From: Janibacter corallicola NBRC 107790
GTDB lineage: Bacteria > Actinomycetota > Actinomycetes > Actinomycetales > Dermatophilaceae
NCBI RefSeq assembly: GCF_001570965.1
Contig: NZ_BCSR01000029.1
Coordinates: 1-39,072, forward strand
DNA: 39,072 nucleotides
Direction: 5' to 3'
The position numbers and the translations under genes were made by a program. Every line of letters starts with the position of its first letter. The stretch's first letter is position 1. Below, one piece after another: positions 5,308 to 36,633 of this stretch. Under the pieces are notes generated by a model that searched no databases, was not told the DNA's origin, and saw only the letters and a list, made by a program, of their open reading frames with translations.

Positions 5308-5313
5308 TAGGAT
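5308..5313 (+). promoter_or_regulatory. Putative -10 box for the IclR gene
   Basis: TAGGAT fits the TAnnnT -10 consensus and lies 35 nt before the ATG at 5348. Transcription would start near 5320, which supports the start at 5348 over the upstream ATG at 5312. No clear -35 is visible. Confidence 0.35.
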
Positions 5314-5347
5314 GTTCATATACCGCACGCGAGGACAGGACGCTTGG

Positions 5348-6052
5348 ATGGCTGAACGCACACCGCCCACGGGAGCCCAGACGATCGACCGCGGACTTCG
5401 GGTTCTGTGGCACTTGGCAGAGCAGCCCGAAGGCGCGAACTTGGCGACCTTGAGCCGCGATCTCGGGATGAACCGCACTGCCGTCCACCGGCTCATGGAG
5501 ACATTCCGCGCGCATGACTTCGTCCGCCGGGACGAGAACAAGAGATTCCACCTGTCCTACGGCCTCGTCCAGCTCGCCTCCCACGTCGACCACGACCTGC
5601 ACCGGATCGCGTATCCGCTCATGGCCGAACTTGCGGACTCCACCGGTGGAACCGTGCACATCATGTCGCCGGTCGACGACGAGGAGGTCCAGGCGATTGG
5701 CGTCGTGGAACCACGCAACACACCGGTCCATCTGGCCTTCCGCACCGGCCATCGCCACCCCATCGGCAGAGGGTCCGGCGGGATCGCGATCCTGTCGTCA
5801 CGGCCGCCCCGCGACAACGATCCCGCGGAGGTGCGAGAGGCCAGGAGACTCGGTTACGCGATCTCTTTCGAGCAGATCATCCCCGGGGTCGCCGGGGTCT
5901 CTGCCCCCGTGGCCACCCCACCCCCCATGCCCGAGGCGTGCCTCGGCATCTCCCTCATGGACCGCCGGGCCGCGGAGACGGTCGCCCCGGCAGTGGTCCG
6001 GGCGGCCGAAGAGCTGAGTTCCCTGCTCTTCAGCCACCGCGGCCACCGCTGA
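5348..6052 (+). CDS. IclR-family transcriptional regulator
   Basis: This 234-residue protein has an N-terminal winged helix-turn-helix (about residues 10-70, including LATLSRDLGMNRTAVHRLME) and a C-terminal IclR effector-binding domain (about 85-230). IclR proteins repress or activate catabolic operons in response to small carboxylic or aromatic effectors. The gene converges with the six-gene operon that ends at 6062, only 9 nt away, and no other regulator gene flanks that operon, so it is the best candidate to control it. The ATG at 5348 follows AGGACAGGA; an in-frame ATG at 5312 would add 12 residues but lies inside the likely promoter. Confidence 0.9.
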   Translation: MAERTPPTGAQTIDRGLRVLWHLAEQPEGANLATLSRDLGMNRTAVHRLMETFRAHDFVRRDENKRFHLSYGLVQLASHVDHDLHRIAYPLMAELADSTGGTVHIMSPVDDEEVQAIGVVEPRNTPVHLAFRTGHRHPIGRGSGGIAILSSRPPRDNDPAEVREARRLGYAISFEQIIPGVAGVSAPVATPPPMPEACLGISLMDRRAAETVAPAVVRAAEELSSLLFSHRGHR

Positions 6053-6061
6053 CGGCCACAC

Positions 6062-6547
6062 TCAGCGATAGACGGGGTCCGTCCCGTCACGGGCGGAAGC
6101 AACCCATTCGTCGTCGAGCACGTCGACGACGGGGACGGAGCGGGACTCGTCGAAGACCACCACACGGTCAGCAATGCCCCACCGGCCCTCACGCCGCTCG
6201 AACCGGTCGACATACCTGCAGCGGATGATCGCGAGGTCTTGGGCCTCGGCGCCCTCAGCCCGCTCCTGCCGCAGGAAGCACAGGCAGTAGGACTCGACGT
6301 GGGCACGGTGCTCCCCCTCGAACTCGATCAGCACATTGCTGATGAAGTGCTGCGAGGAGTCGATGGTGCGATGTCGCAGCCGGATGTCTTCCACGAGCCC
6401 GGCAGCGTCACCGGTGTACCCACCGTGGACGTCTATCGCGTCATCGAAGTAGCAGTCGGCGATCCCTGCATGGTCCAGACGATCCACTGCTCGGGCATAC
6501 CTGAACAGGACGTCCTGGATCTCGAATCGGGACTCGATGCGGCTCAT
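6062..6547 (-). CDS. SnoaL-like (NTF2-fold) protein, last gene of the operon
   Basis: This 161-residue protein has the SnoaL-like polyketide-cyclase/dehydratase fold. The N-terminal helix IQDVLFRYARAVDRLD is followed by DCYFDDAIDVHGGY and a C-terminal sheet ending in RFERREGRWGIADRVVVFDESR. Members act as dehydratases, isomerases or hydrolases, or as small-molecule binding subunits. Its ATG overlaps the stop of the flavoprotein gene in an ATGA (6544-6547), so the two are translationally coupled. It is the terminal gene and meets the IclR gene tail to tail. It is only distantly similar to the other SnoaL-like protein of the operon at 8814-9254. Confidence 0.8.
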   Translation of the reverse strand: MSRIESRFEIQDVLFRYARAVDRLDHAGIADCYFDDAIDVHGGYTGDAAGLVEDIRLRHRTIDSSQHFISNVLIEFEGEHRAHVESYCLCFLRQERAEGAEAQDLAIIRCRYVDRFERREGRWGIADRVVVFDESRSVPVVDVLDDEWVASARDGTDPVYR

Positions 6548-7995
6548 GTGGGCACGACCTCCGTGGTCCGGGTACTGCGGGCTGCGCGTCGGGCGCCCTC
6601 TCGGCCGGCGACTCTGCCGAGGACGAGAGCGTGCGCGACGGAGTTGCCACCGCCGACGTACCGCTCGCCCAGGATCCCGCCGGCAGCCTCGCCCGCGGCG
6701 TAGAGGCCGGCGACGACCCGACCGTCGGTGCGCACCACCTGGGTGCGGGCGTCCACCTGCAGCCCGGTGTGCGTGCAGACCAGTTCGGCGGGCAGCATCC
6801 GGACGGCGTGGAAGGGGCCGGTGGCGATGGGCGCGAGATGGGGGTCGACACCCTTGCCACGGAGGGTCTCGTGCCTCAGGAAGTCCTCATCGACCCCCAG
6901 ACGAAACTGCTCGTTGAAGCGGGCGACACTCGTCGTCAACGCATCAGCCGGAACCTCGATGAGGTCAGCGAGCTCCTCGAGCGTCGCCGCACGACGCACC
7001 GTGCCACGTTCGACTTCCTCGTCGACCCTGTCGGGAGTCCAGTCCGCGAAGCCCGCCGGGAGACCGGCACGCGCCTCCTCATCGAAGACTGCCCACACCC
7101 AGCCTCCGTGGTCGCCGAGGATCCCCGGACTCACCGCGTATGGCGCGTCCTCGTCCATGCACCGGCGGCCGTCGGTGGCCACGTGGATGCGCGAAGGGGG
7201 CGGGAAGCCGCTCTGCCAGTGGTGGTACCGCTGGAACTCGGCGGTGACGAGGAGCAGGCCCCACCCGTCACCGAAGAGCGAGAGGTCGTGCCGCGCTGCC
7301 AGGCCGATGTGGTCCCCCCGGGATCCCTCGGCGGCGACGACGAAGAGGGCGTCACCGGCGACCTTCGTCTCCGGGAAGTAGCGCTCGACCAGCTGCGGAT
7401 TGGCTGCCAGCCCGCCCGAGGCGATGACGACGCTGGGAGCGGTGATCGTGGTGCCTTCGACGACGACACCGGCGATCGCCCCTTCGTCCACGACGATGTC
7501 CTCGACGCGGCTGCCGAGCGCAAGGTCGACACCGAGCCGCGCCCGCGCGCGGTCGAGCGCCTGCACGAGGCCGTAGCCCTGGTCCTTCGGTACGTGCCCT
7601 CGCCAGACGTCCTCGACGCCTGCTCGACACAGACCCGGCTGGTGAGCGTTGTGTGAGATCTGGGCCGGGATCTCGACCCCGAGGTCGGTGACCCACTCGA
7701 TGAGGCCGCTCGACTCCTCGCAGAACATCCGCACCGGGCCGGGGAGGACACGCCACTGGTTCAGATCCATGTAGTGCTGGAACATCCGCTCGGGCGAGTC
7801 CTCCACACCGAGTGCCGACTGAACGGTCGTGCCGGCCGCCGTGAGCAGGCCGGCGGACAGCTGGGTGGAGCCACCCACCTCCTCCTGTGACTCGAGGAGA
7901 AGTACCCGCCCGCCAGCCTGGGCGGCCGAGACCGCGGCTGCGAGACCGGCACCACCCGCCCCGACGACGATGACGTCGTAATCGCGCTCAGACAT
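6544..7995 (-). CDS. FAD-dependent oxidoreductase (fumarate reductase / ketosteroid dehydrogenase-like)
   Basis: This 483-residue flavoprotein is of the FAD_binding_2 type. The dinucleotide motif VGAGGAG lies at residues 11-17 and the adenine-binding strand ends at LLLESQ. The C-terminal AAGEAAGGILGERYVGGGNS is typical of the fumarate reductase, urocanate reductase and 3-ketosteroid dehydrogenase superfamily. Such enzymes introduce or reduce a double bond next to a carbonyl or carboxylate. There is no twin-arginine signal or haem domain, so it should be cytoplasmic. The ATG at 7995 lies inside the end of the upstream SDR gene (8-nt overlap) and follows a run of G residues. With two SDRs beside it, a role in alpha,beta-desaturation of a ring or acyl substrate is a reasonable inference. 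Confidence 0.85.
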   Translation of the reverse strand: MSERDYDVIVVGAGGAGLAAAVSAAQAGGRVLLLESQEEVGGSTQLSAGLLTAAGTTVQSALGVEDSPERMFQHYMDLNQWRVLPGPVRMFCEESSGLIEWVTDLGVEIPAQISHNAHQPGLCRAGVEDVWRGHVPKDQGYGLVQALDRARARLGVDLALGSRVEDIVVDEGAIAGVVVEGTTITAPSVVIASGGLAANPQLVERYFPETKVAGDALFVVAAEGSRGDHIGLAARHDLSLFGDGWGLLLVTAEFQRYHHWQSGFPPPSRIHVATDGRRCMDEDAPYAVSPGILGDHGGWVWAVFDEEARAGLPAGFADWTPDRVDEEVERGTVRRAATLEELADLIEVPADALTTSVARFNEQFRLGVDEDFLRHETLRGKGVDPHLAPIATGPFHAVRMLPAELVCTHTGLQVDARTQVVRTDGRVVAGLYAAGEAAGGILGERYVGGGNSVAHALVLGRVAGREGARRAARSTRTTEVVPT

Positions 7996-8821
7996 GCTGC
8001 GACCCCCCGTCGACGGGGATGTTCGCGCCGGTGATGTAGCGAGCACTGTCGGAGAGGAGGAAGTAGAGGGCCGCGAAGACCTCCACCGGGGCTCCCAGAC
8101 GACGCAACGGCACGGTGCTCAGCGCCTTGTCGAGGGCCGCGGGGTCCTCCTGCACCCACCGGGTCATCTCGGTGTCGATGAAGCCCGGGGCGATGGAGTT
8201 GACCCGGATGTTGTCCGGCCCGAGCTCGACGGCCATGCACGTGGTCAGGTGCTTCACCGCTGCCTTGGAGGAGTTGTAGGTCGCTCGGGTGACGCGAGCC
8301 CGCACCGCTGCCACCGAGGCCATGTTGACGATGGCCCCTCCCCCGACGGACCGGAAGTGCCGGGCAGCGGTCTGGCCGCCATATGCCACGCCGTTGACGT
8401 TCACGCCGTACGTCGCAGCGAGCTGCTCGGGAGTGATGTCGGTGAAGTCCGCCTGTGGGAAGACTCCGGCGTTGTTGACCCACATGTCGAGCCGGCCGAA
8501 CTCCCGAAGGGCCGTCTCCGCCATCAGGTCGTGGGCCGCTGGGTCCGTGACATCGGCGGCGACGCCGATGACGCGACCGGCTCCCTCCGTCCCGGAGTGA
8601 TTGGCATTGATCTTGTCGGCCAGGTCGGACATCGCCGTTCCGTCGAGGTCGCCGCCGACGACGTCGACCCCGCGGAGCGCGAGCTCCTCGAGGAAGAGCG
8701 CTCCCATTCCTCGTCCGGCTCCTGTGATGACGGCGGTGCGCCCGACGAGCTCGGGGTTGCGAGCGGGCAATGGGGAGAGGTCGACGCGACCCGGGTTGGT
8801 GGTCGAGGCGAGGTCAGTCAT
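7988..8821 (-). CDS. Short-chain dehydrogenase/reductase (second SDR of the operon)
   Basis: This 277-residue classical SDR carries the cofactor motif TGAGRGMG (33-40), the NNAG motif (116-119), the catalytic Ser169, Tyr182 and Lys186 (TYNSSK), and a C-terminal PVDGG typical of NAD(P)-dependent alcohol dehydrogenases. It should interconvert a secondary alcohol and a ketone. The ATG at 8821 follows GGAG at good spacing. The gene overlaps the SnoaL-like gene upstream and the flavoprotein gene downstream by 8 nt each. An extended 25-residue N-terminus precedes the Rossmann fold. Confidence 0.88.
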   Translation of the reverse strand: MTDLASTTNPGRVDLSPLPARNPELVGRTAVITGAGRGMGALFLEELALRGVDVVGGDLDGTAMSDLADKINANHSGTEGAGRVIGVAADVTDPAAHDLMAETALREFGRLDMWVNNAGVFPQADFTDITPEQLAATYGVNVNGVAYGGQTAARHFRSVGGGAIVNMASVAAVRARVTRATYNSSKAAVKHLTTCMAVELGPDNIRVNSIAPGFIDTEMTRWVQEDPAALDKALSTVPLRRLGAPVEVFAALYFLLSDSARYITGANIPVDGGSQHV

Positions 8822-9254
8822 GGGGTACTCCTTGTGATGTGGGGTCTGGGGTGCCGTCCCGGACGACGAGACGGTGCTCGAGGAGCAGGTCGGGTCGGCG
8901 AACGAAGCGGTCGTGGATGGTGGTGATGCGATCGATCCGGGCGGAGCCGGTGCCCAGGTCGTGTGTCGTGACGATGAGCAGGTTGGCGCGGGCCGTGACG
9001 TGCTCCTCGGTGACTTCGTCGACGGCGAGGTTGGCGACGACGTGGTGCAGGTGTGGGCTGCCCTCGTGCAGCCCGGCGGCGAAGTCGGTGAGCGCGGCGG
9101 CCCCGGTGATCGGCTCGGGATAGGTCGGCGAGTCGAAGACGCCATCGTCGGTGAAGGTGGCCGCCCATCCGGTGGCGTCGCCACCGTCGATGGCCAGGGA
9201 CTGACGGCCGTACAGGTGCATGACCTCGACCCAGGCTTCGGCGAGGGGAGTCAT
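8814..9254 (-). CDS. SnoaL-like (NTF2-fold) protein, internal to the operon
   Basis: This 146-residue SnoaL-like protein has an N-terminal helix with HLYGRQSLAIDGGD, the strand WAATFTDDGVFDSPTYP, and a conserved HLHHVVANLAVDEV block with histidines that could serve in acid-base chemistry. The function may be dehydration or isomerisation of an operon intermediate, or substrate binding. The ATG at 9254 overlaps the upstream SDR stop by 4 nt (ATGA), and the 3-prime end overlaps the next SDR start by 8 nt. The start was chosen from this overlap, because the longer open frame upstream is antisense noise. Confidence 0.78.
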   Translation of the reverse strand: MTPLAEAWVEVMHLYGRQSLAIDGGDATGWAATFTDDGVFDSPTYPEPITGAAALTDFAAGLHEGSPHLHHVVANLAVDEVTEEHVTARANLLIVTTHDLGTGSARIDRITTIHDRFVRRPDLLLEHRLVVRDGTPDPTSQGVPHD

Positions 9255-10045
9255 CGCGCCTCCTCGAGGTCCGTCAGGATCCGGTGGTAGAGCCCGCCCG
9301 AAGTCAGGCCCCCGTCGACGACCAGCTCCGCGCCGTTGACGTAGGAGGCCACGTCCGAGAGCAGGAAGCACACCACCCCGGCGATCTCCTCCGGCTCCGC
9401 GAGTCGTCCGTCCGGCACGGCCCGGAGGCTGGCGTCGACGAAGGTCGTGTCGGCGGCCTGGTGCAGGAGCGGGGTCCCGGTCAGGCCGGGGTGGACCGAG
9501 TTGACCCGCACGCCCCGACCGGCCAGCTCGAGGGCGCCGACCTTGGACAGCCCGCGAACACCCCATTTGCTCGTTCCGTAGGTCGCGGAGAAGTAGCCGA
9601 CCATGCCGGCGATCGACGAGACATTGACGATCGAGGCCCCACCGCCGGCGGCGACGAGCGCCGGAGCGAGGAACTTCATGCCGTAGAAGACGCTCGAGAG
9701 GTTGACCTCCATGACCCGCTGCCAGTCCTCGACGCTGGTGTCGAGGATTCCCAGCCGCAGGCTCACGCCCGCGTTGTTGACCAGCCCGTGGAGCGCTCCC
9801 TCGGCCTCGACCTCGTCGGCCACCTCGGCCCACGACGCCGGATCTGCTACGTCGAGGCGGACTGCGCGGGCGGCCCCACCCGCACCGGTGCACTCGTCAG
9901 CCACCCGAGCGGCACCCGCCTCGTCGACGTCTGCAACCCACACATGGGCGCCACGACCGGCCAGGGCGAGGCAATCAGCGCGGCCCAGGCCCCCAGCACC
10001 GCCGGTGACGACGACGGAGCGCCCTTCGAAGTCCTTCGTACTCAC
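9251..10045 (-). CDS. Short-chain dehydrogenase/reductase (first SDR of the operon)
   Basis: This 264-residue classical SDR has TGGAGGLG (14-21), NNAG (90-93), the active-site Ser143/144, Tyr156 and Lys160 (TYGTSK), and the C-terminal VVDGG. It resembles hydroxysteroid and cyclic-alcohol dehydrogenases of the 3-alpha/20-beta group. The GTG at 10045 is preceded by GGAG eight bases away and overlaps the transporter stop in a GTGA. It probably performs one of two alcohol-to-ketone steps in the operon. It is clearly a different paralogue from the SDR at 7988-8821. Confidence 0.88.
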   Translation of the reverse strand: MSTKDFEGRSVVVTGGAGGLGRADCLALAGRGAHVWVADVDEAGAARVADECTGAGGAARAVRLDVADPASWAEVADEVEAEGALHGLVNNAGVSLRLGILDTSVEDWQRVMEVNLSSVFYGMKFLAPALVAAGGGASIVNVSSIAGMVGYFSATYGTSKWGVRGLSKVGALELAGRGVRVNSVHPGLTGTPLLHQAADTTFVDASLRAVPDGRLAEPEEIAGVVCFLLSDVASYVNGAELVVDGGLTSGGLYHRILTDLEEAR

Positions 10046-11361
10046 AGCTGCAGCTCCGTCCCCTTCGTCTCCGGGAGGAAGAACGTGGCGAGCAGGGACA
10101 GCAGGGCGGTGAAGAGGAGGAAGGCCGCTGGAGTGAGGGTGTTGTCGGTCACCTTGATGAGGAAGGTCGCGATGAAGGGGGCCGTGCCACCCAGCGTCAT
10201 GTTCGTGACGTTGTTGGCCAGCGCGATACCGCTGTAGCGGTATCGCGCCCGGAACAGCTCGGCATAGGTCGCGAAGGAGACACCGTTGTTGCAGCCGATG
10301 AGGAAGGCGAGGACGGCCTGGGCGGCTACCGCTGCGACCACGGGTCCGTCGCGCATGAGCATGAAAGCCGGGACCGCGATGATGGCCACCACTGCGCTCG
10401 TCGTGAAGAAGACCGGCTTGCGACCGTAACGGTCGCCGATCCAGCCGGCGACGGGAAGACTGATGACAGCGGCAACCATCGCGATGCACGTGGACGCGAA
10501 GGCCACCGTGGAGGAGTGACCGCCGGCCGTCTGCAGGTAACTCGCCGCGTACACGGAGCAGATGTAATAGCCACCCACGATCATCGCGCCCAGACCGATG
10601 ATGAGGAGCACCTCGCGCCATGCGTAGCGGACGACATCGGTGACGGGGTAGCGCGCCTGCTCGATGTCGTCGGCCTCCTGGACGTCCTCGAACTGCTCCG
10701 TCTCGTGCAGCTGGCTGCGGATGTACAAGCCGACGAGACCGATGACGAGGCTGATCACGAACGGGACCCGCCAGGCCCAGACGGAGATCGTCTCCTCGGA
10801 GAAGGTCGTGCTCAGGCCAAGGGCCACCAGCGACGCGACGAGGGAGCCGAGGTAGGTCCCGGTGTTGACGAACGAGGTGTGGAAGGCCCGACGCTCACGG
10901 GGTGCGTGCTCTGAGACGAAGGCATTCGCGCCACTGAGCTCGCCGCCGGCGGCGAATCCCTGCAGGCACCGGCACAGGACGAGGACCGCGGTGGCCCAGG
11001 CCCCGAGCGTTGCGTAGGTCGGCAACAGCCCGATGCCGGCCGTGGCGAGCGCCATGAGCAAGATCGTGTAGGTCAGTGACTTCTTGCGTCCGTACCTGTC
11101 CCCGATGTGTCCGAAGAAGATTCCACCGGGCACGCGGAGGAAGAAGGCGACCGCGAAGGCCGCGAAGGTGCTCAGCAGAGCCGTCGTCGGGTCGCTCTTC
11201 ACGAAGAAGTGGGTGGCGATCATTCCGGCCATGTAGCCGTAGATGCCGAAGTCGTAGTACTCGACGATCGTACCGAGCACGGCCGCCCGGATCACCTTGA
11301 CGGTGGACTGCGGGGGAGCAGCGCTCGCCGCGGGCGTCGCCGTAGCTGTGGAAGGGGACAT
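10042..11361 (-). CDS. MHS-family metabolite:proton symporter
   Basis: This 439-residue, 12-helix carrier belongs to the MHS branch of the MFS, which includes ShiA, KgtP and ProP. Landmarks are VEYYDFGIYGYMA in helix 1, the loop 2-3 motif GDRYGRKKSL, RCLQGFAAGGELSGA in helix 4, and GWIGDRYGRKPVF in the central loop. MHS proteins import carboxylates such as shikimate, dicarboxylates or aromatic acids with protons. It is the promoter-proximal gene, so uptake is the first function expressed. The ATG at 11361 has GAGAGG at good distance; an upstream ATG at 11379 is inside the likely promoter. Confidence 0.88.
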   Translation of the reverse strand: MSPSTATATPAASAAPPQSTVKVIRAAVLGTIVEYYDFGIYGYMAGMIATHFFVKSDPTTALLSTFAAFAVAFFLRVPGGIFFGHIGDRYGRKKSLTYTILLMALATAGIGLLPTYATLGAWATAVLVLCRCLQGFAAGGELSGANAFVSEHAPRERRAFHTSFVNTGTYLGSLVASLVALGLSTTFSEETISVWAWRVPFVISLVIGLVGLYIRSQLHETEQFEDVQEADDIEQARYPVTDVVRYAWREVLLIIGLGAMIVGGYYICSVYAASYLQTAGGHSSTVAFASTCIAMVAAVISLPVAGWIGDRYGRKPVFFTTSAVVAIIAVPAFMLMRDGPVVAAVAAQAVLAFLIGCNNGVSFATYAELFRARYRYSGIALANNVTNMTLGGTAPFIATFLIKVTDNTLTPAAFLLFTALLSLLATFFLPETKGTELQL

Positions 11362-11386
11362 CGTTGGCCTCTCGTGCATTCATATA

Positions 11387-11403
11387 GTGAACGTACTGTT
11401 CAC
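11387..11403. promoter_or_regulatory. Operator-like inverted repeat at the operon promoter
   Basis: GTGAAC (11387-11392) and GTTCAC (11398-11403) form a perfect inverted repeat with a 5-nt spacer, in an AT-rich island 26 nt before the first gene of the operon. On the minus strand it adjoins a TATATG that could be the -10. A related GTTCATATA occurs in the upstream region of the IclR gene near 5313. Regulation by that IclR protein is an inference. Confidence 0.5.
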
Positions 11404-23988: not shown

Positions 23989-25242
23989 TCAGCGCAGCGG
24001 GTTCAGCGCAGAAGCCCACGCCGGTACGGGTACTCCGGTGATGAGGTCCGCCGAGAGCCGCCCCGTGACCGGGCCCAGGACCATCCCCCACATCCCGTGC
24101 CCTCCGGTGATATGCACCCGAGGGGATGTGGTCGGCCCGACGAGTGGTAGCCCGTCCGGGGTGCACGGTCGTGACCCGACCCACTCCTCGCGCCTGGCTT
24201 CCCAGTCCACGGTGGCGAACATGGGCCGGGCGGCCGCGACCATCGCTTCGATGCGGCGCGGCTCGGCGGGCGAGTCGGGATCGCGCAGCTCCATCGTTCC
24301 GGTGATGCGGAAGCGATCGTGCAGGGGGTTGCACGCCAGGTGCTGGGACGGGAGGTGAACCGGGTGTCGCGGTATGGGGTCGGGGCGCACGGTGAAGCTG
24401 TATCCCCGGCCGGCCTGGACGACCTGCCGCACTCCGTATGGCCGCGCCAGCGTGTTGAGCCACGCTCCGGTGGCGATCACTGCGGCGTCGGCGTGCAACT
24501 CGTGCCCCGCGGGAGAAAGCAGGACGACGCCAGCCTCGCCCCCGTCGCGGACCCGGGAGACGTCGAAGTCCTCGACGATGCGGGCGCCCCGAGCACGGAC
24601 AGCGTCGGCGAGGGCGGCGATGTAGTCGGGCGGGTCGATGTAGCCCTGGTCGTGCAGCAGCAGTCCGGCCTCGACGCGGTCGCTGAGGGCGGGCTCCATG
24701 GCGTGGAGCTCATCGGACCCGATCTGTTCGTACCGGGCGCTGCCGCCGACCGCGACGACCTCCTCGATCTCGCGGACCAGCGGAGCCAGACCAGCAGGTG
24801 AGGTGGCCGCGGAGATCAACGGGCGGTGCTTGACGGGTGCCGTGACCCCGGACTCGGTGAGATGGGCGTAGGCGTCCAGGCTGCGTCGGTTGAGTTCGTT
24901 GAAGATCTGCATGGACCGCCGCCACCTGCTCCTGCGGGAGTGTCGGGCGAACTGCAGCAGGAACCGCCAGAGCCGCATGTCGGCCTGCGGAGGGACCGTG
25001 ATCGACGACGACGGGTCCAGCACCCCCTGCAGGCCGGCCCGTAGCGTTCCTGGCTCTGCCAGTGGAACCGTCAGGGTCGGGTTGAGCATGCCGGCGTTCC
25101 CCCACGACGCACCAGCGGCCACCCCGGCACGGTCCAGCACCGTCGTGCGCACTCCTCGCTCCTGGAGGAACCATGCGGTCGCCAAGCCGGCCATTCCTGC
25201 ACCCACGACGGCCACGTGGCCCGGGCCCGCCGCCCGAGTCAA
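23989..25242 (-). CDS. DadA-like D-amino-acid dehydrogenase / FAD amine oxidoreductase
   Basis: This 417-residue FAD enzyme of the DAO family has VAVVGAGMAGLATAW (residues 10-24), the strand TTVLDRAG, GASWGNAGML as in DadA and glycine-oxidase-type proteins, and the C-terminal GSRPCTPDGLPLVGPT and GHGMWGMVLGPVTGRLSADLITG. Members oxidise D-amino acids or N-substituted amino acids to imines, passing electrons to quinone or oxygen. The TTG at 25242 overlaps the DctP stop as TTGA and follows GGGGG, so translation is coupled. It is the last gene of the TRAP operon and probably processes the imported compound after the M24 hydrolase. Confidence 0.8.
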   Translation of the reverse strand: MTRAAGPGHVAVVGAGMAGLATAWFLQERGVRTTVLDRAGVAAGASWGNAGMLNPTLTVPLAEPGTLRAGLQGVLDPSSSITVPPQADMRLWRFLLQFARHSRRSRWRRSMQIFNELNRRSLDAYAHLTESGVTAPVKHRPLISAATSPAGLAPLVREIEEVVAVGGSARYEQIGSDELHAMEPALSDRVEAGLLLHDQGYIDPPDYIAALADAVRARGARIVEDFDVSRVRDGGEAGVVLLSPAGHELHADAAVIATGAWLNTLARPYGVRQVVQAGRGYSFTVRPDPIPRHPVHLPSQHLACNPLHDRFRITGTMELRDPDSPAEPRRIEAMVAAARPMFATVDWEARREEWVGSRPCTPDGLPLVGPTTSPRVHITGGHGMWGMVLGPVTGRLSADLITGVPVPAWASALNPLR

Positions 25243-26285
25243 CCTCGACCCCCTTCGGCCTGCTTGATCTCGCGGACCAGGGTGCGCAGGATGTCGGCGC
25301 CACGCGGGTCGGCGGAGTGCAGATACTCCTCCCGCGCCTTCATCGACATCTTGCGGTAGACCTCGCGCTGGGAGTCGGTGAGCTCGACCACGGAGATGTC
25401 CGAGGCCTTCATCTTCGTGAGTGCGTCCTCATTCATCTGCTCCTGCACGTCGAAGACCCAGTCATCAAGATCATCCACTGTGGACTCGATGACCTTCCGG
25501 TCCCGAGCGGGCAGTCCGTGCAGGAAGTCGGCGTTGATGATCGTGGAGGTCACGTAGATGTGGTGTCTGCCGAGGGTGAGGTAGTCCTGTACCTCGTGGG
25601 TGTTTCCGCTGTAGATGAAGAACAGCGGATTCACGGTGGCATCGATCATGTTCGTCTGCAGGGCCGTGTAGATCTCACCGGCGTCCATCGGCATCGGGTT
25701 CGCACCCAACGCCTCATACGTGGTCAGGAGCATCGGTGACGTCATGGTGCGAATCCGCAGCCCCTTCATCCCTTCGGGCTCTGCTATCGGTCGGTTCGAC
25801 GTCCACGCCATGAATCCCTCGGTCCAGTAGCCGAGGACCTCCACACCCCGGTCGGAGTAGATCCCGGCGAGGTCCTGGTTGAGCGCCTTGCTGGAGTCGA
25901 GGACCTTGCGATTGACCTGCATGTCGTCGGAGAAGACGAACGGGATGGACAGCGCCTGGTTCTCCTCGACGACGGGGGCAGTGATGCTCGGTGTCGAGAT
26001 CGCCGCCTGGACGGCGTTGTCCTCGACCATCTTCAAGGAGTCATCGTTCGTGCCGAGCTGCCCCGCCGAATAGGTCACCACGTCAACTCGGTGGTCGGTG
26101 CGACGCTCGACCAACTTCTCGAACCTCTCTGCGTACTGCCCCTGCACGTCGCCCGCCCCCTCCTCGTGGACCAGCCTGAGCGTGACCGGCTCGCTCTCCG
26201 CGGCGTCCTGGGCGTCACCGGCGCAGCCACCGAGGAGGCCCAGGAGGATCGCCAGGGACGCGGGAACCGTCAGGTGCTTCTGCAT
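25239..26285 (-). CDS. dctP: TRAP transporter substrate-binding lipoprotein
   Basis: This 348-residue DctP-family protein has a lipobox (LLGGC, Cys21) that tethers it outside the membrane. Family blocks include GQLGTNDDSLKMVEDNAVQ, IPFVFSD, GMKGLRIRTMTSPMLLTTYEALGANPMPMDAGEIYTALQTNMIDATVNP and the AREEYLHS-type C-terminal helix. The Arg in LRIRTM is the usual carboxylate-binding arginine, so an organic acid or zwitterion is the likely ligand. It is encoded after the permeases, 16 nt from dctM, and overlaps the flavoenzyme gene by 4 nt. Confidence 0.88.
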   Translation of the reverse strand: MQKHLTVPASLAILLGLLGGCAGDAQDAAESEPVTLRLVHEEGAGDVQGQYAERFEKLVERRTDHRVDVVTYSAGQLGTNDDSLKMVEDNAVQAAISTPSITAPVVEENQALSIPFVFSDDMQVNRKVLDSSKALNQDLAGIYSDRGVEVLGYWTEGFMAWTSNRPIAEPEGMKGLRIRTMTSPMLLTTYEALGANPMPMDAGEIYTALQTNMIDATVNPLFFIYSGNTHEVQDYLTLGRHHIYVTSTIINADFLHGLPARDRKVIESTVDDLDDWVFDVQEQMNEDALTKMKASDISVVELTDSQREVYRKMSMKAREEYLHSADPRGADILRTLVREIKQAEGGRG

Positions 26286-26301
26286 CGTGGTCTCCTGAAC
26301 G

Positions 26302-27585
26302 TCACGGGGAGGGGAGCACGTACTCGTAGGCGAGGACGATGTCGGGCACGAGGATGATCAGCACGTTCGCTGCCAGCAGGATCGCGATGTAGGGCGCGAC
26401 GCCCTTGGCCACGGTCAGGTACGGAACCCTGAAGATGGCGCTGGCGGTGAAGATGTTGACCCCGAAGGGCGGGGTGACCACGCCGATGGCTGCCTGCAGG
26501 GTGATGATGATGCCGACGTACACGGGGTCCGCCCCCACCTCGAGGGCGATGGGGAAGAAGATCGGGGTGAGGATCGCGATGGCCACGAGGGCGTCGACGA
26601 ACATGCACGCGACGATGAAGAAGGCGGACATGATCAGCAGCACGACCACCTGCGAGGGGTCACCGGCCAGGACGACACCGGCCAGGGACTGAGGGATCTG
26701 TGCGTAGGAGATGACCCACGAAATGGCCCCTCCCGCAGCCAGCAGGATGAAGATCACACTGGTGATGGTCGCCGTGGATGCGGCCATCTCTGCCAGGTCA
26801 CGAAACCGGATGGAGCGGTACACCCCCAACTCCACGATGGCGGCGTAGACCACCGACAGGGCGGCGGCCTCCGTCGGGGTGGCGATGCCGATGTAGATGC
26901 TGCCCAGGATGAGGACCGGCAGGCCCAGGGTGAGCGCCGCCCGGCGAAGTGCCGCCAACTTCTCCCGAGCCGTCGACGTGTCCGAGGTCGGGATCCCCTT
27001 CACCCGTGCCACGACGTGCTCGTACCCCGCGAAGAGGACGAAGATCAATATCCCGGGGATGATCCCGGCCAGGAAGAGGTTGCCCACCGATGTGCTGGTC
27101 AAGGTCCCGTAGTAGATCATCACGGTGCTCGGCGGGATCAACAGCGCGAGAGAACTCGCGTTGACCAGCAGCGCGAGAATGTGCGAGTCGCTGTACCCGA
27201 CCCGCAGCGCTTCGGTGCGCATCGGTGGGCCGATCGCGGCGACGGTCGCCTGTGAGGAACCCGAGACGGCGCCGAAACCGGTCGCGGCTGCTGCCGTGGC
27301 TATGCCGGTGCCGCCACGCATGCGCCCGATGGTCTTCTGGACCAGGTCGAGCAGGTACTTCGAGGTGCGGCCGGCGGACATGATGTCGGCGGCGAAGATG
27401 AACAGCGGGATCGCCATGAGCACGTAGGGCTCCACGCTGCTGACGAGCTGCTGGATGACGATGCTGGGCTCAGTGGTTGGCAGGTAGGTCATCCACAGGG
27501 CCAGCGCGGCGACCAGCATCACGACCATCATCGGGAAGCCGAGCAGCAGCATGGCCAGGGTGATGGCGAGTATGACCCATTCCAT
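26302..27585 (-). CDS. dctM: TRAP transporter large permease
   Basis: This 427-residue DctM-family membrane protein has about 12-13 helices. Typical segments are MAIPLFIFAADIM, ATGFGAVSGSSQATVAAIGPPM, LLIPPSTVMIYYG, NLFLAGIIPGIL and the C-terminal GVVTPPFGVNIF. It forms the sodium-coupled transport path with the small permease. The ATG at 27585 lies three bases after the dctQ stop, so the two are cotranslated. Nothing is unusual in length or motifs. Confidence 0.9.
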   Translation of the reverse strand: MEWVILAITLAMLLLGFPMMVVMLVAALALWMTYLPTTEPSIVIQQLVSSVEPYVLMAIPLFIFAADIMSAGRTSKYLLDLVQKTIGRMRGGTGIATAAAATGFGAVSGSSQATVAAIGPPMRTEALRVGYSDSHILALLVNASSLALLIPPSTVMIYYGTLTSTSVGNLFLAGIIPGILIFVLFAGYEHVVARVKGIPTSDTSTAREKLAALRRAALTLGLPVLILGSIYIGIATPTEAAALSVVYAAIVELGVYRSIRFRDLAEMAASTATITSVIFILLAAGGAISWVISYAQIPQSLAGVVLAGDPSQVVVLLIMSAFFIVACMFVDALVAIAILTPIFFPIALEVGADPVYVGIIITLQAAIGVVTPPFGVNIFTASAIFRVPYLTVAKGVAPYIAILLAANVLIILVPDIVLAYEYVLPSP

Positions 27586-27588
27586 CGG

Positions 27589-28128
27589 TCAGCCCTCCCA
27601 GGACGTCTCGACGTCCGCTTCGGAGGGTCTCCCATGACCTGGTAGTGGCCACAGGTCGGCGACGAACCGCATCGCGGCGAGCAGAAAGCCGACCGGGATG
27701 ACGCTCAACGGCAGGAACATCGGGATGCCCAGCACATTCGAGGAGTCGCCACTGGCGTATATCTGGATGGCGTATCGGGCACCGAGGTAGGCCATGACCA
27801 GCATGGTGGCGGCCGAGACCACCGAGACGAGCCAACCGAGTGTGTCCCGGCCCCTGTCAGCCAGCAGGTCGTACAGAGCGGACATCGCGATGTGTCGCCG
27901 CTGGTGGGCGGCGTAGCCCAGCCCACCGAAGGTGACGACGATGAGCAGCAGGCTGCCGATCTCCTCGGTGAACGCCCAGCTGACGCCGAAAAGGTTGCGC
28001 GAGATCACGTTCCCCACGACGAGCACGCTCATCACGATGATCGAGAGCCCGAGCAGCGTGCGTTCGATGACCCCGAGGAGCCCGTCGCGGGGACCGTGCT
28101 CTTCCTCAGGGGGCCTCTCGTGTGCCAT
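27589..28128 (-). CDS. dctQ: TRAP transporter small permease
   Basis: This 179-residue DctQ-family protein has four helices and a hydrophilic N-terminal extension (MAHERPPEEEHGPRDG). Characteristic segments are VISRNLFGVSWAFTEEIGSLLL, GLGYAAHQRRHIAM and the last helix LPLSVIPVGFLLAAMRF. It associates with DctM in the membrane. The gene is first of the TRAP part and lies 109 nt beyond the M24 gene, with a 7-bp stem hairpin between, which may lower or separate expression. Confidence 0.88.
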   Translation of the reverse strand: MAHERPPEEEHGPRDGLLGVIERTLLGLSIIVMSVLVVGNVISRNLFGVSWAFTEEIGSLLLIVVTFGGLGYAAHQRRHIAMSALYDLLADRGRDTLGWLVSVVSAATMLVMAYLGARYAIQIYASGDSSNVLGIPMFLPLSVIPVGFLLAAMRFVADLWPLPGHGRPSEADVETSWEG

Positions 28129-28209
28129 TCGGTGTGCACCTGCCTCGTTGCAGTGGGTGATGTCTCGTGCTGGGCGTGCGCCGTGGTCGCAGGGTTCGAA
28201 GGGGGACGT

Positions 28210-28234
28210 GGCCGGGACGACTGCCGCCCCGGCC
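28210..28234 (-). terminator. Hairpin between the M24 gene and dctQ
   Basis: GGCCGGG (28210-28216) and CCCGGCC (28228-28234) form a 7-bp stem with an 11-nt loop, four bases after the M24 stop. It may be an intra-operon attenuator or stability element, as all genes run in the same direction. Confidence 0.45.
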
Positions 28235-28237
28235 TGG

Positions 28238-29479
28238 TCAGGTGGCCAGGTGGATCAGATCGGCTGGTCCGTGCGTGAGTACACGGGTCTGCTCCTCCTC
28301 CACGACGAACGTCTGGCTGAGGCCGACTCCCTGCCGGCCGAAAGCGCGGAAGGAGGCCGGGATGTGGAAGACCATGTTGGCCTGGAGCGGCTCGTGGTTG
28401 TCCTCGGTCAGGAAGAAGGGCGCCCCGTCCATCCAGTGCGGCTTGTGGGCCAAGCCGATCGGGTAGCCGAACATCCCGTGGAACATCACGTCCGCTGGAA
28501 GTGGTCCGAGCGCGTTCGCCGCCGCCGCGGCAACCTGTGATGCGGGCACTCCTGCACGCGCGGTCTCGAGCACGGCCGCCACCATGGCTCTGGCGAGGTC
28601 GGCGAGCCTCGCGTCGGTGGCCGCGGGGTCGCCGCGAACGAGTGTCCTCATCACGGGAGCGTGGTACCGGCGACAGGTTCCTGAGAACTCCAGGAATGTC
28701 GGCCCTGGGGCCAGCGTGCTGCCCTCCCAGCTGGAGTGCGGGATGCCCGAGCGCGGTCCGGTGACGACGACGGGACCCCAGGCCGAGATCGAGTCGGATG
28801 CTCGATGAAGCGCAGCTGCAATTGCTGCCCCGACGGATGCGTCGTTCGCGCCCGCGGCCGCCGCGGCGGTGGTGGCAGCGCTCACCCCGGCCGCCGTCAC
28901 CTCGGCCGCCCGCTGGACGCACCGCAGCTCCGCGGGCGAGAGGACCAGCCTCTCGCGTTCGACCATGTGGTCGGAGTCCACGACGACGACATCCTGGGCG
29001 GTCCAGAGCGCAACGGCCCTCGGGGGTGTCGGCTCGCTCATCTCCACGCCCACCCGGGCACCGGAGGTGAGGCTGGATGCCGCATGTGCGATGAAGCGCT
29101 CGAGACTGGTCAACGCGTCGGAGTATCCGCAGAAGCGGATCTGGTCCACGCACGAGCTGGCCAGCGCCCGCCCCACCTCCAGGTCAGGGACGTACAGGAC
29201 GGTTTCCGACTCGGTGATCAGCAGTGGTTGGGCCGCTGTCTCAGCGGTGTGGAACCCGCACAGGTACTCGATGCTGGAGGGACGGAAGACCATCAGTGCG
29301 TCCAGTTCCGCGGCATGCATGCGTGCGCGCACCCTGCTCAACCGCGCAGCGTGCTCCTCCACGTCGAAAGGTGGCCCCTCCAACGCTCGGAGGGTTTCCG
29401 CAGCCTGCGAGTCCAACCATCTGGGCGCCGCAGCTGCGTGCATACCGATGACCTCAGGGGGCTCGTACGTCCGCGCCAT
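28238..29479 (-). CDS. M24-family hydrolase of the creatinase / DoeA type
   Basis: This 413-residue protein has an N-terminal creatinase domain (about 40-170; ALMVFRPSSIEYLCGF) and a pita-bread catalytic domain (about 180-410). The position where M24 aminopeptidases have metal-binding Asp reads FLEFSGTCRRYHAPVMRT, as in creatinase and ectoine hydrolase DoeA, which lack the dinuclear metal centre. HGMFGYPIGLAHKP and FVVEEEQTRVLT match the later motifs. It therefore probably hydrolyses a C-N bond in a small amino-acid derivative, not a peptide. The ATG at 29479 and a GTG one codon earlier share a GGGAGG. First gene of the TRAP operon, divergent from LysR. Confidence 0.8.
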   Translation of the reverse strand: MARTYEPPEVIGMHAAAAPRWLDSQAAETLRALEGPPFDVEEHAARLSRVRARMHAAELDALMVFRPSSIEYLCGFHTAETAAQPLLITESETVLYVPDLEVGRALASSCVDQIRFCGYSDALTSLERFIAHAASSLTSGARVGVEMSEPTPPRAVALWTAQDVVVVDSDHMVERERLVLSPAELRCVQRAAEVTAAGVSAATTAAAAAGANDASVGAAIAAALHRASDSISAWGPVVVTGPRSGIPHSSWEGSTLAPGPTFLEFSGTCRRYHAPVMRTLVRGDPAATDARLADLARAMVAAVLETARAGVPASQVAAAAANALGPLPADVMFHGMFGYPIGLAHKPHWMDGAPFFLTEDNHEPLQANMVFHIPASFRAFGRQGVGLSQTFVVEEEQTRVLTHGPADLIHLAT

Positions 29480-29622: not shown

Positions 29623-30534
29623 ATGAACCTGTCGCTACGACGGATGCGTGCGCTTCATGAGTTCGCCTCCCGAGGCACGATCACGCGTGCAGCCGAGGCG
29701 CTGCACTACACCCCCTCAGCGGTCTCCCAACAACTGACGGCCTTGGAACGCGACGTGGGGATCCCGTTGTTCGAGCAGGTCGGACGCCGGCTCCGTCTGA
29801 CGCCCAACGGACGGATGCTGGCCCTGCACGCGGGTCAGATGCTGGCCGCTGAGGAACGGGCCCGTGCAGATGTGGAGCGTGCACAGACCTCATTGACCGC
29901 GTCCTTGACAGTGGGGGTCGTGGCCACCTTTGCCGCCTCGCTCCTGCCGATAACCCTACGAATCCTCGGCGAGCAGGAACCGGGCATCGACGTGAGCACC
30001 CGCGAGGTGAGCCCCGAGGTCGCCTTGGAAGCAGTCCATGACGGCGACTTCGACATGACGTTCGTCCTGGACTACCCGGAGACCCCGGTCGGCCTGGAAC
30101 TGGGACTGCGATCCACAGTCGCCGCCGTCGAACGCCTGTATGTCGTGGTCGCCGATGACCAGCACGAGTCGGACGACCCCATCGACCTGTCCGAGCTCGC
30201 CGACTGGGAATGGATCGCCTCGGGCGCCGGAACGGACTTCGGGCGCGCCTTCCTGGCCACGTGTCGGCGAGCAGGCTTCGAACCTCATGTGCGTCACGAG
30301 ATCGACAGTCAGGCCACGGCACTGTCCATGGCCGCCGCGGGTCTCGGCGCCACGCTCATCGCCGACCTCGGCCTGACACCCCTTCCGGAGCACGCCCGGG
30401 TCCTCCAGATCCGCAATCCCCCGCTGCGAAGGCTGCTCCTGGTCCGGCGCAGCTCAACGGTCGAGCGACCACCCGAGAACGCGTTCCTGCGAGCCACGCT
30501 GGATGCCGCGACCGAGATGGGGATTCATCCGTAG
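29623..30534 (+). CDS. LysR-family transcriptional regulator
   Basis: This 303-residue protein has an N-terminal LysR helix-turn-helix (RMRALHEFASRGTITRAAEALHYTPSAVSQQLTALE) and a C-terminal two-lobed effector domain (about 90-295). LysR proteins typically activate a divergent operon upon binding a pathway intermediate. Here the divergent neighbour is the M24-TRAP-flavoenzyme operon, separated by 143 nt that must contain the shared control region. The opening MNLSLRRMRAL is the classic family start. Several contexts with this subfamily control amino-acid-derivative or organic acid use; the effector is unknown. Confidence 0.9.
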   Translation: MNLSLRRMRALHEFASRGTITRAAEALHYTPSAVSQQLTALERDVGIPLFEQVGRRLRLTPNGRMLALHAGQMLAAEERARADVERAQTSLTASLTVGVVATFAASLLPITLRILGEQEPGIDVSTREVSPEVALEAVHDGDFDMTFVLDYPETPVGLELGLRSTVAAVERLYVVVADDQHESDDPIDLSELADWEWIASGAGTDFGRAFLATCRRAGFEPHVRHEIDSQATALSMAAAGLGATLIADLGLTPLPEHARVLQIRNPPLRRLLLVRRSSTVERPPENAFLRATLDAATEMGIHP

Positions 30535-32120: not shown

Positions 32121-32825
32121 TCAAGGTGCGGCGCGATGGGTCTTGGAGCGTTCGCTCGTTAGGGGAGTGAGGGCGCGCTCCACTATGTCTGCCGTGCATT
32201 GGTAGTGCTTGCGCAGCTGTGCGGCTGCGGTGTCGGCATCTCGTGCGATGGTCGCATCGACGATCGCACGGTGCTCGGCGGCGACATCACGACTGGGTTC
32301 GTGCAGCTGGGACCAGCGGCGATAGAACTCGGCAGCATCACGCAGAGTCCGGGTGATCCCGAGCATCCACTCGCTGGCGCATCCGTCTAGCAGGGTCGAA
32401 TGGAATTGGGAGTGCGCCTCCTCCCAGTCGTCCGAGACCCGTAGCGGCTCGTCAACTGTCAGCAGCGGAGTGCGCTCGAGCCTGTGGTGAGCAGCCACGA
32501 TCGCAGACTCCCAATCCACGCCACCCCGCTCGATCGCCTGGCGCAGGGCCATGACCTCGACGTCGATGCGTGTAGCCGTGAGATCGCGTAGGTCCGCGAC
32601 CGAGACGGCGCGCACGCGGAACCCGATCCGTGGCTCCGACTCCACCAGACCCTGCTCGCACAGCCGCGAGAGCGCCTCTCGGATGACGCTCACGCTGGCG
32701 CCGTACCGCTCGCACAGCGGCATGAATTTCAGCCGGGACCCCGGTGGGTACACGCCAGCCAAGACGTCACCGCGCATCAGCGCATAGACCGTCTCGGTGC
32801 TCGCCCGGGGGCGCTGCTCAGTCAT
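32121..32825 (-). CDS. GntR-family regulator of the FadR/FCD type
   Basis: This 234-residue protein has an N-terminal winged helix (about 10-75; RLKFMPLCERYGASVSVIREALSRLCEQGLVESEPRIGFRV) and an all-helical FCD effector domain (about 85-215). The FCD metal/ligand residues appear in HSQFHSTLLDGC and EHRAIVDATIARD. FCD regulators normally repress catabolic operons and respond to organic acids. It is divergent from the hydroxylase cluster across a 218-nt AT-rich gap and is the clear candidate to control it. Confidence 0.88.
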   Translation of the reverse strand: MTEQRPRASTETVYALMRGDVLAGVYPPGSRLKFMPLCERYGASVSVIREALSRLCEQGLVESEPRIGFRVRAVSVADLRDLTATRIDVEVMALRQAIERGGVDWESAIVAAHHRLERTPLLTVDEPLRVSDDWEEAHSQFHSTLLDGCASEWMLGITRTLRDAAEFYRRWSQLHEPSRDVAAEHRAIVDATIARDADTAAAQLRKHYQCTADIVERALTPLTSERSKTHRAAP

Positions 32826-32844
32826 GCCCGGACCATATCGAAGA

Positions 32845-32895
32845 TGCAGATCTCCCTAATTTTCGAATATTCATTGATCTTTCGATTCTTATGCG
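32845..32895. promoter_or_regulatory. AT-rich divergent promoter/operator region
   Basis: This stretch is markedly AT-rich for the window. It contains the 8-bp palindrome GAATATTC (32865-32872) and two TTTCGA hexamers 19 bp apart (32861 and 32880). It lies between the GntR gene and the aromatic cluster, where promoters for both directions and the repressor site are expected. Exact boxes cannot be assigned. Confidence 0.45.
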
Positions 32896-32948
32896 GGAGC
32901 CTGATGAGACGGCGGTCGCCGTATCCGGACACTCGATGAGGAGGACCG

Positions 32949-33047
32949 ATGACGAGCATCGTGACGGGCCCCGGCGGTTGCACCACGGTCGGGCTGGACG
33001 AGACCACCGATCGACGCCCCGCACACGCACGGCGGGGGGGCTCATGA
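32949..33047 (+). CDS. Small ORF coupled to the hydroxylase gene
   Basis: A GAGGAGG Shine-Dalgarno sequence is followed by an ATG at 32949 and a 32-residue reading frame beginning MTSIVTGPGGCTTVGLDE. Its TGA overlaps the hydroxylase start codon as ATGA (33044-33047). The Shine-Dalgarno sequence is better than that of the hydroxylase itself. It may be a leader peptide that couples translation, a tiny real protein, or the remains of an earlier first gene. The peptide has one cysteine and no membrane segment. Confidence 0.45.
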   Translation: MTSIVTGPGGCTTVGLDETTDRRPAHARRGGS

Positions 33048-34840: not shown

Positions 34841-35675
34841 CGGCCGCGCCGTCCTCATCACCACGGAAGACCACGCCGTCGACGTCCACCGCGCCAGTGA
34901 TGGTCGCTTCGGCCCCGATGTGCCCATGATCTACGACCACTGGGACGAGTTCCGTCAGTGGGCGGCCACCGCCACTGTGCCGCCGGGCGAACCCTTCGAT
35001 ATCACGACCCTGGGCCCGCCCTCTCCGGCACCGCGTCAGGTCCTCGGGGTCGGTCTGAACTACGACGACCACGCCGTCGAGTCCGGGTTCGAAGCGCCCG
35101 GCGATCTCCCGCCCATCTTCCCGAAGTTCGTCAGCAGCCTCACCGGTCCGGTGACCGAGGTGACCCTGCCCGAAGGGGGGAACACGGACTGGGAGGTCGA
35201 ACTCGTCGTCGTCATCGGGAGGGAGGCCACACAGGTTGCGTCAGCTGATGCGTGGGACCACGTCGCCGGTGTCACCGCTGGTCAGGACCTCTCCGAACGG
35301 GTCACCCAGCTGCGGGGCCCGGCACCGCAGTTCGGTCTGGGCAAGTCCTTCCCGGGCTTCTCCCCGACAGGGCCGTGGCTGGTCACCGCCGATGAGTTCG
35401 CCGACCGCGACGACATCGGACTGCGCTGCGAGATCGACGGCGAGATCCTCCAGGACGGGCGCACCCGCAACCTCATTGCCCCGGTGCCACGCCTCATCGC
35501 GGACCTCTCACGGGTGATCACGCTCTATCCCGGAGACCTGATCTTCTCCGGAACCCCGGCAGGAGTCGGGCTGGGCAGGGAGCCGAAGCGCTTCCTGACC
35601 GCCGGGCAGACCCTCGTGAGCACGGTCGAGGGCGTCGGCGAGCTGCGACAGACCTTCGTCTCGGGAAGGCGGTGA
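34821..35675 (+). CDS. Fumarylacetoacetate-hydrolase-family enzyme
   Basis: This 284-residue protein has a C-terminal FAH domain (about 75-280). Markers are VLGVGLNYDDHA, PPIFPKF, the metal-binding acid in WEVELVVVIG, GVTAGQDLSER, LGKSFPGFSPTGPWLV and the ending LIFSGTPAGVGLGR. The family includes acylpyruvate hydrolases and 2-hydroxyhepta-2,4-diene-1,7-dioate isomerase/decarboxylases of meta-cleavage pathways. It likely acts on the ring-cleavage product made by the neighbouring dioxygenase. The ATG at 34821 lies within the hydroxylase gene. Confidence 0.87.
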   Translation: MKLANRDGRAVLITTEDHAVDVHRASDGRFGPDVPMIYDHWDEFRQWAATATVPPGEPFDITTLGPPSPAPRQVLGVGLNYDDHAVESGFEAPGDLPPIFPKFVSSLTGPVTEVTLPEGGNTDWEVELVVVIGREATQVASADAWDHVAGVTAGQDLSERVTQLRGPAPQFGLGKSFPGFSPTGPWLVTADEFADRDDIGLRCEIDGEILQDGRTRNLIAPVPRLIADLSRVITLYPGDLIFSGTPAGVGLGREPKRFLTAGQTLVSTVEGVGELRQTFVSGRR

Positions 35676-35679
35676 GGAC

Positions 35680-36600: not shown

Positions 36601-36633
36601 CATCTAGGACAACGAATCACAGGAGGAACCACC

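Follow-up and report, generated by a model that had tools for sequence, protein, structure and literature searches.

What does the six-gene operon on the minus strand of a Janibacter corallicola NBRC 107790 contig break down, and where does its product go? The window analysed here is the whole stretch of 39,072 nucleotides (contig C29 of a 3.1-Mb genome), in which the operon runs from 11361 or 11379 down to 6062. From its conservation, its active-site residues and the neighbours of its relatives, we posit that it encodes a peripheral catabolic pathway that would convert a hydroaromatic C8 organic acid into homogentisate, a reading which we hold to be probable, with real reservations. Its genes, in operon order, are as follows.

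10042-11379, minus strand: MHS-family MFS symporter (start at 11379, or at 11361 with GAGAGG in front; Pfam Sugar_tr/MFS_1)
9251-10045, minus strand: SDR1, an NAD-type short-chain dehydrogenase (SDR) with a GTG start (Pfam adh_short_C2; best NCBIfam match ChcB1, below cut-off)
8814-9254, minus strand: SnoaL1, an NTF2-fold putative dehydratase or isomerase (Pfam SnoaL_4; D23 and H71 invariant)
7988-8821, minus strand: SDR2, an NAD-type short-chain dehydrogenase (Pfam adh_short_C2)
6544-7995, minus strand: flavoprotein, a putative cyclic-ketone desaturase (Pfam FAD_binding_2; KstD-type tyrosine pair Y286 and Y446)
6062-6547, minus strand: SnoaL2, an accessory NTF2-fold protein (Pfam SnoaL_4; LinA-type Asp22-His67 dyad; found in 33 of 80 loci)

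Gene families, coordinates and junctions agree with an initial annotation made from the DNA alone, the successive genes overlapping by 4, 4, 8, 8 and 4 nt. An identical series recurs in Nocardioides luteus (L009) and Janibacter melonis (L019), and rearranged operons keep overlaps too, of 8 nt between SDR2 and SDR1 in 44 of 55 cases and of 4 nt between SDR1 and the flavoprotein gene in 40 of 54. Overlaps were taken from a purpose-made gene caller based on codon usage, which missed some genes; the counts of gene presence given below come from tblastn. The initial annotation had read the junctions as coexpression at the translational level, and their conservation does favour co-translation, although overlap is unremarkable by itself because 150 of 590 other same-strand neighbours in these loci, called in the same way, overlap as well.

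A scan with the flavoprotein returned 122 relatives, and all locus counts rest on the best 80 of these 122. Presence was scored by tblastn within 5 kb of the flavoprotein gene, or within 6.5 kb for SnoaL1 and for an IclR-family regulator described further below. Beside the flavoprotein gene (80/80), SDR2 was present in 79/80 loci, SDR1 and SnoaL1 in 78/80 each, the IclR gene in 75/80, the MHS symporter in 52/80 and SnoaL2 in 33/80. The near-invariable core consists of SnoaL1, SDR1, SDR2 and the flavoprotein only; the six genes had initially been presented as one set, which stands for these four and not for SnoaL2 or the symporter. A search of gene neighbourhoods, initially proposed for actinobacteria, finds this core recurring in Actinobacteria and also in Alcaligenaceae. 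The nearest named flavoproteins, from Nocardioides, Janibacter and Streptomyces albidoflavus, are 80-83% identical. Relatives fall into two classes of gene order: a first class (L009-L020, 72-83% identity) from Nocardioides, Janibacter, Streptomyces, Saccharopolyspora and Sciscionella, and a second (L021-L088, 57-63% identity), ordered differently, mostly from Rhodococcus, Nocardia and Amycolatopsis but also from Streptomyces, Aeromicrobium and others, including Advenella, Castellaniella and one metagenome-assembled genome of the Alcaligenaceae. Distribution is sporadic, with the operon in 2 of 248 genomes of the window's order and 11 of 394 of its class (the window genome counted in both), and in 4 of 268 genomes of Castellaniella's family, Castellaniella itself included.

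The transporter is exchanged among these relatives, being an MHS symporter, another MFS protein or, in Alcaligenaceae, a TRAP system. The window's MHS symporter scores 392.7 bits against TIGR00883 (metabolite/H+ symporter), under the cut-off of 443.45, and the replacement MFS scores 277 bits against the HpaX 4-hydroxyphenylacetate permease model and 300 against a galactonate transporter model, both below cut-off. MHS, HpaX-like MFS and TRAP proteins are families known mostly for organic acids. The best solved relatives of the Castellaniella TRAP solute-binding protein are 4pgn and 4nap, which we take to have indole-acid and tryptophan ligands, and this protein offers a hint, and only a hint, of aryl-acetate-like acids. 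Indole acids are named among TRAP ligands in an excerpt of a review (PMC5812351).

Clustering of the neighbouring genes, unprompted, yielded a divergent homogentisate dioxygenase (HGD), a fumarylacetoacetase (FAH), an uncharacterised protein and a two-subunit CoA transferase. The divergent HGD gene was found in 52/80 loci, 1.4-8.8 kb from the flavoprotein gene and in three arrangements: downstream on the same strand (38 loci), upstream on the opposite strand (7) and upstream on the same strand (7). Of these 52 loci, 47 also contain FAH, and four have an HGD match truncated by the end of the locus; CoA-transferase A was detected in 17/80. By simple arithmetic (about 20 kb in genomes of 3-10 Mb), an unlinked gene would be expected in less than one locus of 80. 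On three Streptomyces plasmids the operon forms a single block with CoA transferase B and A, FAH, a hypothetical protein, HGD and two helix-turn-helix regulators, and in Castellaniella an FAA hydrolase and the maleylacetoacetate isomerase MaiA (290.8 bits, cut-off 171) lie 7-8 kb downstream of the operon. We also drew 394 genomes evenly from the class, unselected for linkage, and found the divergent HGD (E <= 1e-80) in all 11 that carry a flavoprotein orthologue (E <= 1e-130), the window genome among them, and in 160 of the 394 overall (hypergeometric 4.0e-5, a figure that ignores relatedness). The two genes lie within 6 kb of each other in five of the 11 (G568, G614, G782, G787 and G842) and not in the other six, which include the window genome. 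The operon had initially been described as a closed route; this does not hold, as relatives couple it to HGD, FAH and CoA transferase, and the window genome has HGD and FAH on another contig. Taken together, the linkage suggests that the operon feeds homogentisate, directly or via hydroxyphenylacetate, which we regard as likely.

That argument presupposes a dioxygenase acting on homogentisate, and the divergent enzyme is remote from solved HGDs. It retains the His, Glu and His iron ligands in alignments to solved structures, at positions that we take to be those of the ligands. All 25 operon genomes beside the window's contain an HGD-family match, divergent in 24 (best scores 37.7-75.9 bits) and canonical in 8; Advenella has a canonical HGD alone, and the divergent match of Castellaniella is just 30% identical to the actinobacterial type. 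4-Hydroxyphenylpyruvate dioxygenase (HPPD) was found in 22 of the 26 operon genomes, the window's included. Since HPPD is present in all 18 of those with only a divergent HGD, tyrosine-derived homogentisate most likely enters the divergent enzyme there. In Rhodococcoides fascians (L140), MarR, the divergent HGD, the uncharacterised protein, FAH and HPPD occupy one stretch. Four operon genomes (G002, G012, G016 and G017) carry two or three HGD-family genes and no HPPD that we could find, so that, if their assemblies are complete, their homogentisate would come from a source other than HPPD. One alternative, which we consider improbable, is that operon and divergent dioxygenase handle some other 2,5-dihydroxyaryl acid, analogous to homogentisate; the distance from solved HGDs fits this, as do the eight of 25 genomes with an additional canonical HGD, among them two Streptomyces (G020 and G021) in which the divergent copy is the linked one. 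It is opposed by the 18 HPPD-bearing genomes with only a divergent HGD, by the adjacent HPPD of R. fascians and by the cluster FAH, a full fumarylacetoacetase by its score (458.7 bits, cut-off 375). It is further opposed by Rhodococcus ruber Chol-4, whose hmg cluster reads MarR-hmgA-hmgB (its hmgA type was not compared) and which, according to an excerpt of PMC6498646, grows on homogentisate and not on tyrosine.

The uncharacterised protein, of about 280 aa, was detected in 45/80 loci; its gene adjoins those of HGD and FAH and most often separates the two. One member matches nothing in Pfam or NCBIfam and nothing convincingly in the PDB. We infer for this protein a possible role as glutathione-independent maleylacetoacetate isomerase; in Castellaniella a normal MaiA is present. 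The window genome also encodes a 40% identical paralogue about 2 kb from HPPD. Their positions are as follows.

L123:8881-9741: uncharacterised protein of about 280 aa, window genome, contig C4
L088:13481-14332 and equivalents: the same protein in other loci
L124:4943-5830: paralogue

What chemistry might lead to homogentisate is suggested by the active-site residues. The flavoprotein matches FAD_binding_2 over its full length (170.5 bits), and its best matches of solved structure are flavocytochrome c fumarate reductases; the initial annotation had called it fumarate-reductase-like. The catalytic arginines of those enzymes, which we take to be R402 and R545 in Shewanella numbering, are both absent: R402 falls at a one-residue gap beside Tyr286 (four of five phmmer alignments) and R545 on Tyr446. 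With these residues missing, and with Tyr286 and Tyr446 invariant in 78/78 orthologues, a fumarate reductase was ruled out. The tyrosine pair aligns instead with Y318 and Y487 of the ketosteroid dehydrogenase KstD, and Gly450 with Gly491, in an alignment using two rhodococcal KstD-model proteins (L126 and L127; L125 and L128, read on the wrong strand, were left out); the Tyr318/Tyr487 numbering is presumed, and agrees with chain positions 338 and 507 in 4c3x at an offset of 20. These residues resemble an apparatus for dehydrogenation beside a ring ketone, making the protein a putative cyclic-ketone desaturase. Its differences from KstD are of length (483 aa, against 530 and 561 aa in the solved chains), of score and of context, which is homogentisate and not steroid.

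D22 and H67 of SnoaL2, invariant in 15/15 sequences, align with the catalytic dyad of LinA, presumably Asp25-His73, although the similarity is remote (E 0.002); D23 and H71 of SnoaL1 reach the same dyad positions through Rv3472 as a bridge and are invariant in 39/39 (39 aligned sequences chosen from 58). Both are putative LinA-like dehydratases or isomerases. In the two SDRs, with positions deduced from their distance to the YxxxK motif, the expected residues are conserved: Asp39 (74/76), N115 (76/76), S143 (74/76), Y156 and K160 (both 76/76) in SDR1, and Asp58, N141, S169, Y182 and K186 (all 79/79) in SDR2. Because the second strand ends in an Asp in both enzymes, NAD+ and so the oxidative direction are favoured. 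The net chemistry would then be a dehydration or isomerisation, two alcohol oxidations and one ketone desaturation. The initial view of a coexpressed catabolic unit with organic-acid uptake, these oxidation and desaturation steps, and NTF2-fold dehydratases or isomerases is supported, and none of the six genes encodes a CoA ligase. Ring aromatisation, one of several guesses made initially, is favoured by the active-site residues and the homogentisate linkage, and we incline slightly towards it.

A substrate that is already aromatic would call for other chemistry, with the SDRs, a SnoaL protein and the flavoprotein acting on a side chain to release homogentisate. These are versatile families, and the flavoprotein superfamily includes side-chain enzymes, of which urocanate reductase and the vinyl phenol reductase VprA match our flavoprotein at lower score. 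Given a tyrosine pair of the cyclic-ketone dehydrogenase type, and a four-gene core free of any aldehyde dehydrogenase, CoA ligase or thiolase, we judge this distinctly improbable.

A close parallel in logic is the Chc aromatisation by ChcB1/ChcB2 and ChcC1/ChcC2, where oxidation of a ring alcohol by an SDR is followed by desaturation of the ketone by KstD-family flavoproteins until the ring is aromatic, without CoA. The operon differs in having one flavoprotein and not two, in its SnoaL proteins, and in its link to homogentisate and not to 4-hydroxybenzoate. Could it nonetheless belong to a steroid, cyclohexanecarboxylate (chc) or shikimate/quinate type of pathway, the homogentisate linkage being incidental? 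The best matches do lie there, with ChcB1 for SDR1, the KstD and ChcC models for the flavoprotein, ShiA for the symporter and, weakly, ketosteroid isomerase for SnoaL1 (E about 1e-3). All these steroid, chc and shikimate models score below cut-off, and membership was not accepted on that ground; among the annotated recurrent neighbour families (single neighbours were left unannotated) there is no steroid or quinate gene, and an HGD linkage that takes three arrangements and also appears on plasmids can hardly be dismissed as incidental. We rate this possibility as very remote.

How might such a pathway run? The genes, their conservation, their linkage and their active-site residues are read from sequence, and the reactions, their order and the product are our proposal. 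The MHS symporter would import the acid, SDR1 and SDR2 would turn ring alcohols into ketones with NAD+, SnoaL1 would dehydrate the ring or move a double bond, and the flavoprotein would desaturate beside a ring ketone in the fashion of a ketosteroid dehydrogenase. The resulting cyclohexenedione or dienone would tautomerise to the hydroquinone homogentisate, which would then pass to the dioxygenase, fumarylacetoacetase and CoA transferase. As a substrate class we propose cyclohexane- or cyclohexene-acetic acids oxygenated on the ring, with C2 and C5 as the simplest positions, and name no single compound. The hydrogen balance allows this by arithmetic: removing 6 H from dihydroxycyclohexylacetate (in two SDR steps and one FAD step) leaves homogentisate, as does removing H2O and 4 H from trihydroxycyclohexylacetate. 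Starting from 2,5-dihydroxycyclohexylacetate, two SDR steps and one FAD step would give cyclohexene-1,4-dione-acetate, which is homogentisate in another tautomeric form; if one dehydration took part as well, the pathway could begin with a trihydroxy acid. Among the C8 natural products considered as substrates, including plant quinols (jacaranone, rengyolone) and cyanoglucoside lactones, none matches the 2,5-oxygen pattern of homogentisate without rearrangement, and a literature search on three of these names gave no lead.

The aromatisation might also stop short of homogentisate. In the main alternative, which we think unlikely though less so than the others, the operon would aromatise only to 2- or 3-hydroxyphenylacetate, and a separate hydroxylase, either a CYP116B P450 like OhpA or an FAD_binding_3 enzyme, would make homogentisate. 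A P450 fused to reductase and Fer2 domains, as in CYP116B enzymes (no comparison with OhpA itself was made), is a neighbour of the operon in six Prescottella/Rhodococcus loci and is encoded about 17 kb downstream of it in Castellaniella; the window genome has one on contig C24. FAD_binding_3-type hydroxylases occur near the operon in 11/80 loci (families c15 and c24). An excerpt of PMC8449657 describes OhpA of Cupriavidus as a proven 2-hydroxyphenylacetate 5-hydroxylase yielding homogentisate and thus, like our proposed route, a homogentisate feeder, with an IclR-type regulator and sometimes beside hmgA. OhpA differs from our route in being a single P450 that hydroxylates an aromatic acid, the six-gene operon having no oxygenase. 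Against the alternative, a P450 of the reductase-fused type is absent (E <= 1e-150) from 18 of the 26 operon genomes, with a partial match in one more, and hydroxylases of recurrent families (single neighbours being unannotated) are near the operon in only those 11 loci. The window genome's own P450 (G000:C24:40393-42738) is 61% identical to the Prescottella one, and this genome may use 2-hydroxyphenylacetate through homogentisate.

Several observations weigh against a route from a hydroaromatic acid to homogentisate. The flavoprotein falls far below the KstD cut-offs (206.5 of 789 bits for NF009478 and 184.1 of 788 for NF005882), and the Chc models are likewise missed (ChcB1 198.5 of 400 for SDR1; ChcC1 136 of 1000 and ChcC2 153 of 900). 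The divergent HGD reaches only 52 bits on the curated hmgA model, whose cut-off is 511, and HGD is common enough (160/394) for co-occurrence alone to be only moderate evidence. The fetched flank of 28/80 loci yielded no HGD, some loci being short, and both named Janibacter relatives (L011 and L019) are among these 28. The window genome has HGD, the uncharacterised protein and FAH together on contig C4, not on the operon contig, and HPPD on C55; for this genome the link to homogentisate rests on orthology. Finally, a 2,5-dioxygenated cyclohexaneacetic skeleton is not known to us from any abundant natural product.

The operon is accompanied by a probable regulatory pair.

5312-6052, plus strand: IclR-family regulator, convergent with the operon
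11387-11403, strandless: perfect palindrome GTGAAC-N5-GTTCAC, directly upstream of the operon's first gene, a probable IclR operator

A gene 56-79% identical to the window's IclR gene is present in loci L009-L011 and L016-L019. The exact palindrome did not occur in 100 shuffles of the window, although the pattern was picked after being seen; with up to two mismatches, the window holds three sites against 1.13 expected and is not clearly richer than its shuffles. Upstream of the MHS gene of relatives, perfect five-base arms with a 5-nt spacer were found in L011 and L019 (TGAAC) and in L016 and L017 (TGAGC), and arms with one mismatch in L009 and L010; none were found at that place in L018. Presumably, IclR regulates the operon through the palindrome at 11387.

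Elsewhere in the window, positions 32121-37269 hold a cluster resembling those for aromatic degradation (GntR/FCD regulator, FAD_binding_3 ring hydroxylase, FAA hydrolase family protein, glyoxalase/extradiol-type protein and isochorismatase-like hydrolase). Positions 23989-29320 carry, on one strand, a DAO-type flavoprotein, genes of a TRAP-type transporter with a DctP binding protein and an M24 (creatinase/prolidase-like) peptidase, beside a divergent LysR gene at 29644-30534.

The initial annotation knew of no named pathway with this exact gene set; searches of open-licence literature aimed at the operon brought up no description of it, and a published account may exist. Aromatising peripheral pathways as such are already known, and we rate the link to a product and the combination of enzymes as what is new here. 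Our most specific proposal, an undescribed aromatising route from a hydroaromatic ring-acetic acid to homogentisate through a four-enzyme core, free of oxygenase and of CoA, and plasmid-borne as a complete unit down to fumarate and acetoacetate, is put forward tentatively, at roughly even odds. With it, a conserved and unnamed gene set gains a specific product hypothesis, and the hunt for a substrate narrows to ring-acetic acids. For biocatalysis, the core would also be a source of new cyclic-ketone desaturases and NTF2-fold dehydratases. If true, this would be a third kind of entry into homogentisate, besides HPPD and the hydroxyphenylacetate hydroxylases; its substrate would probably be abundant in soil or plants, though unrecognised so far as a growth substrate for bacteria, and the operon would point to a natural hydroaromatic compound consumed by bacteria and not yet connected with their catabolism.

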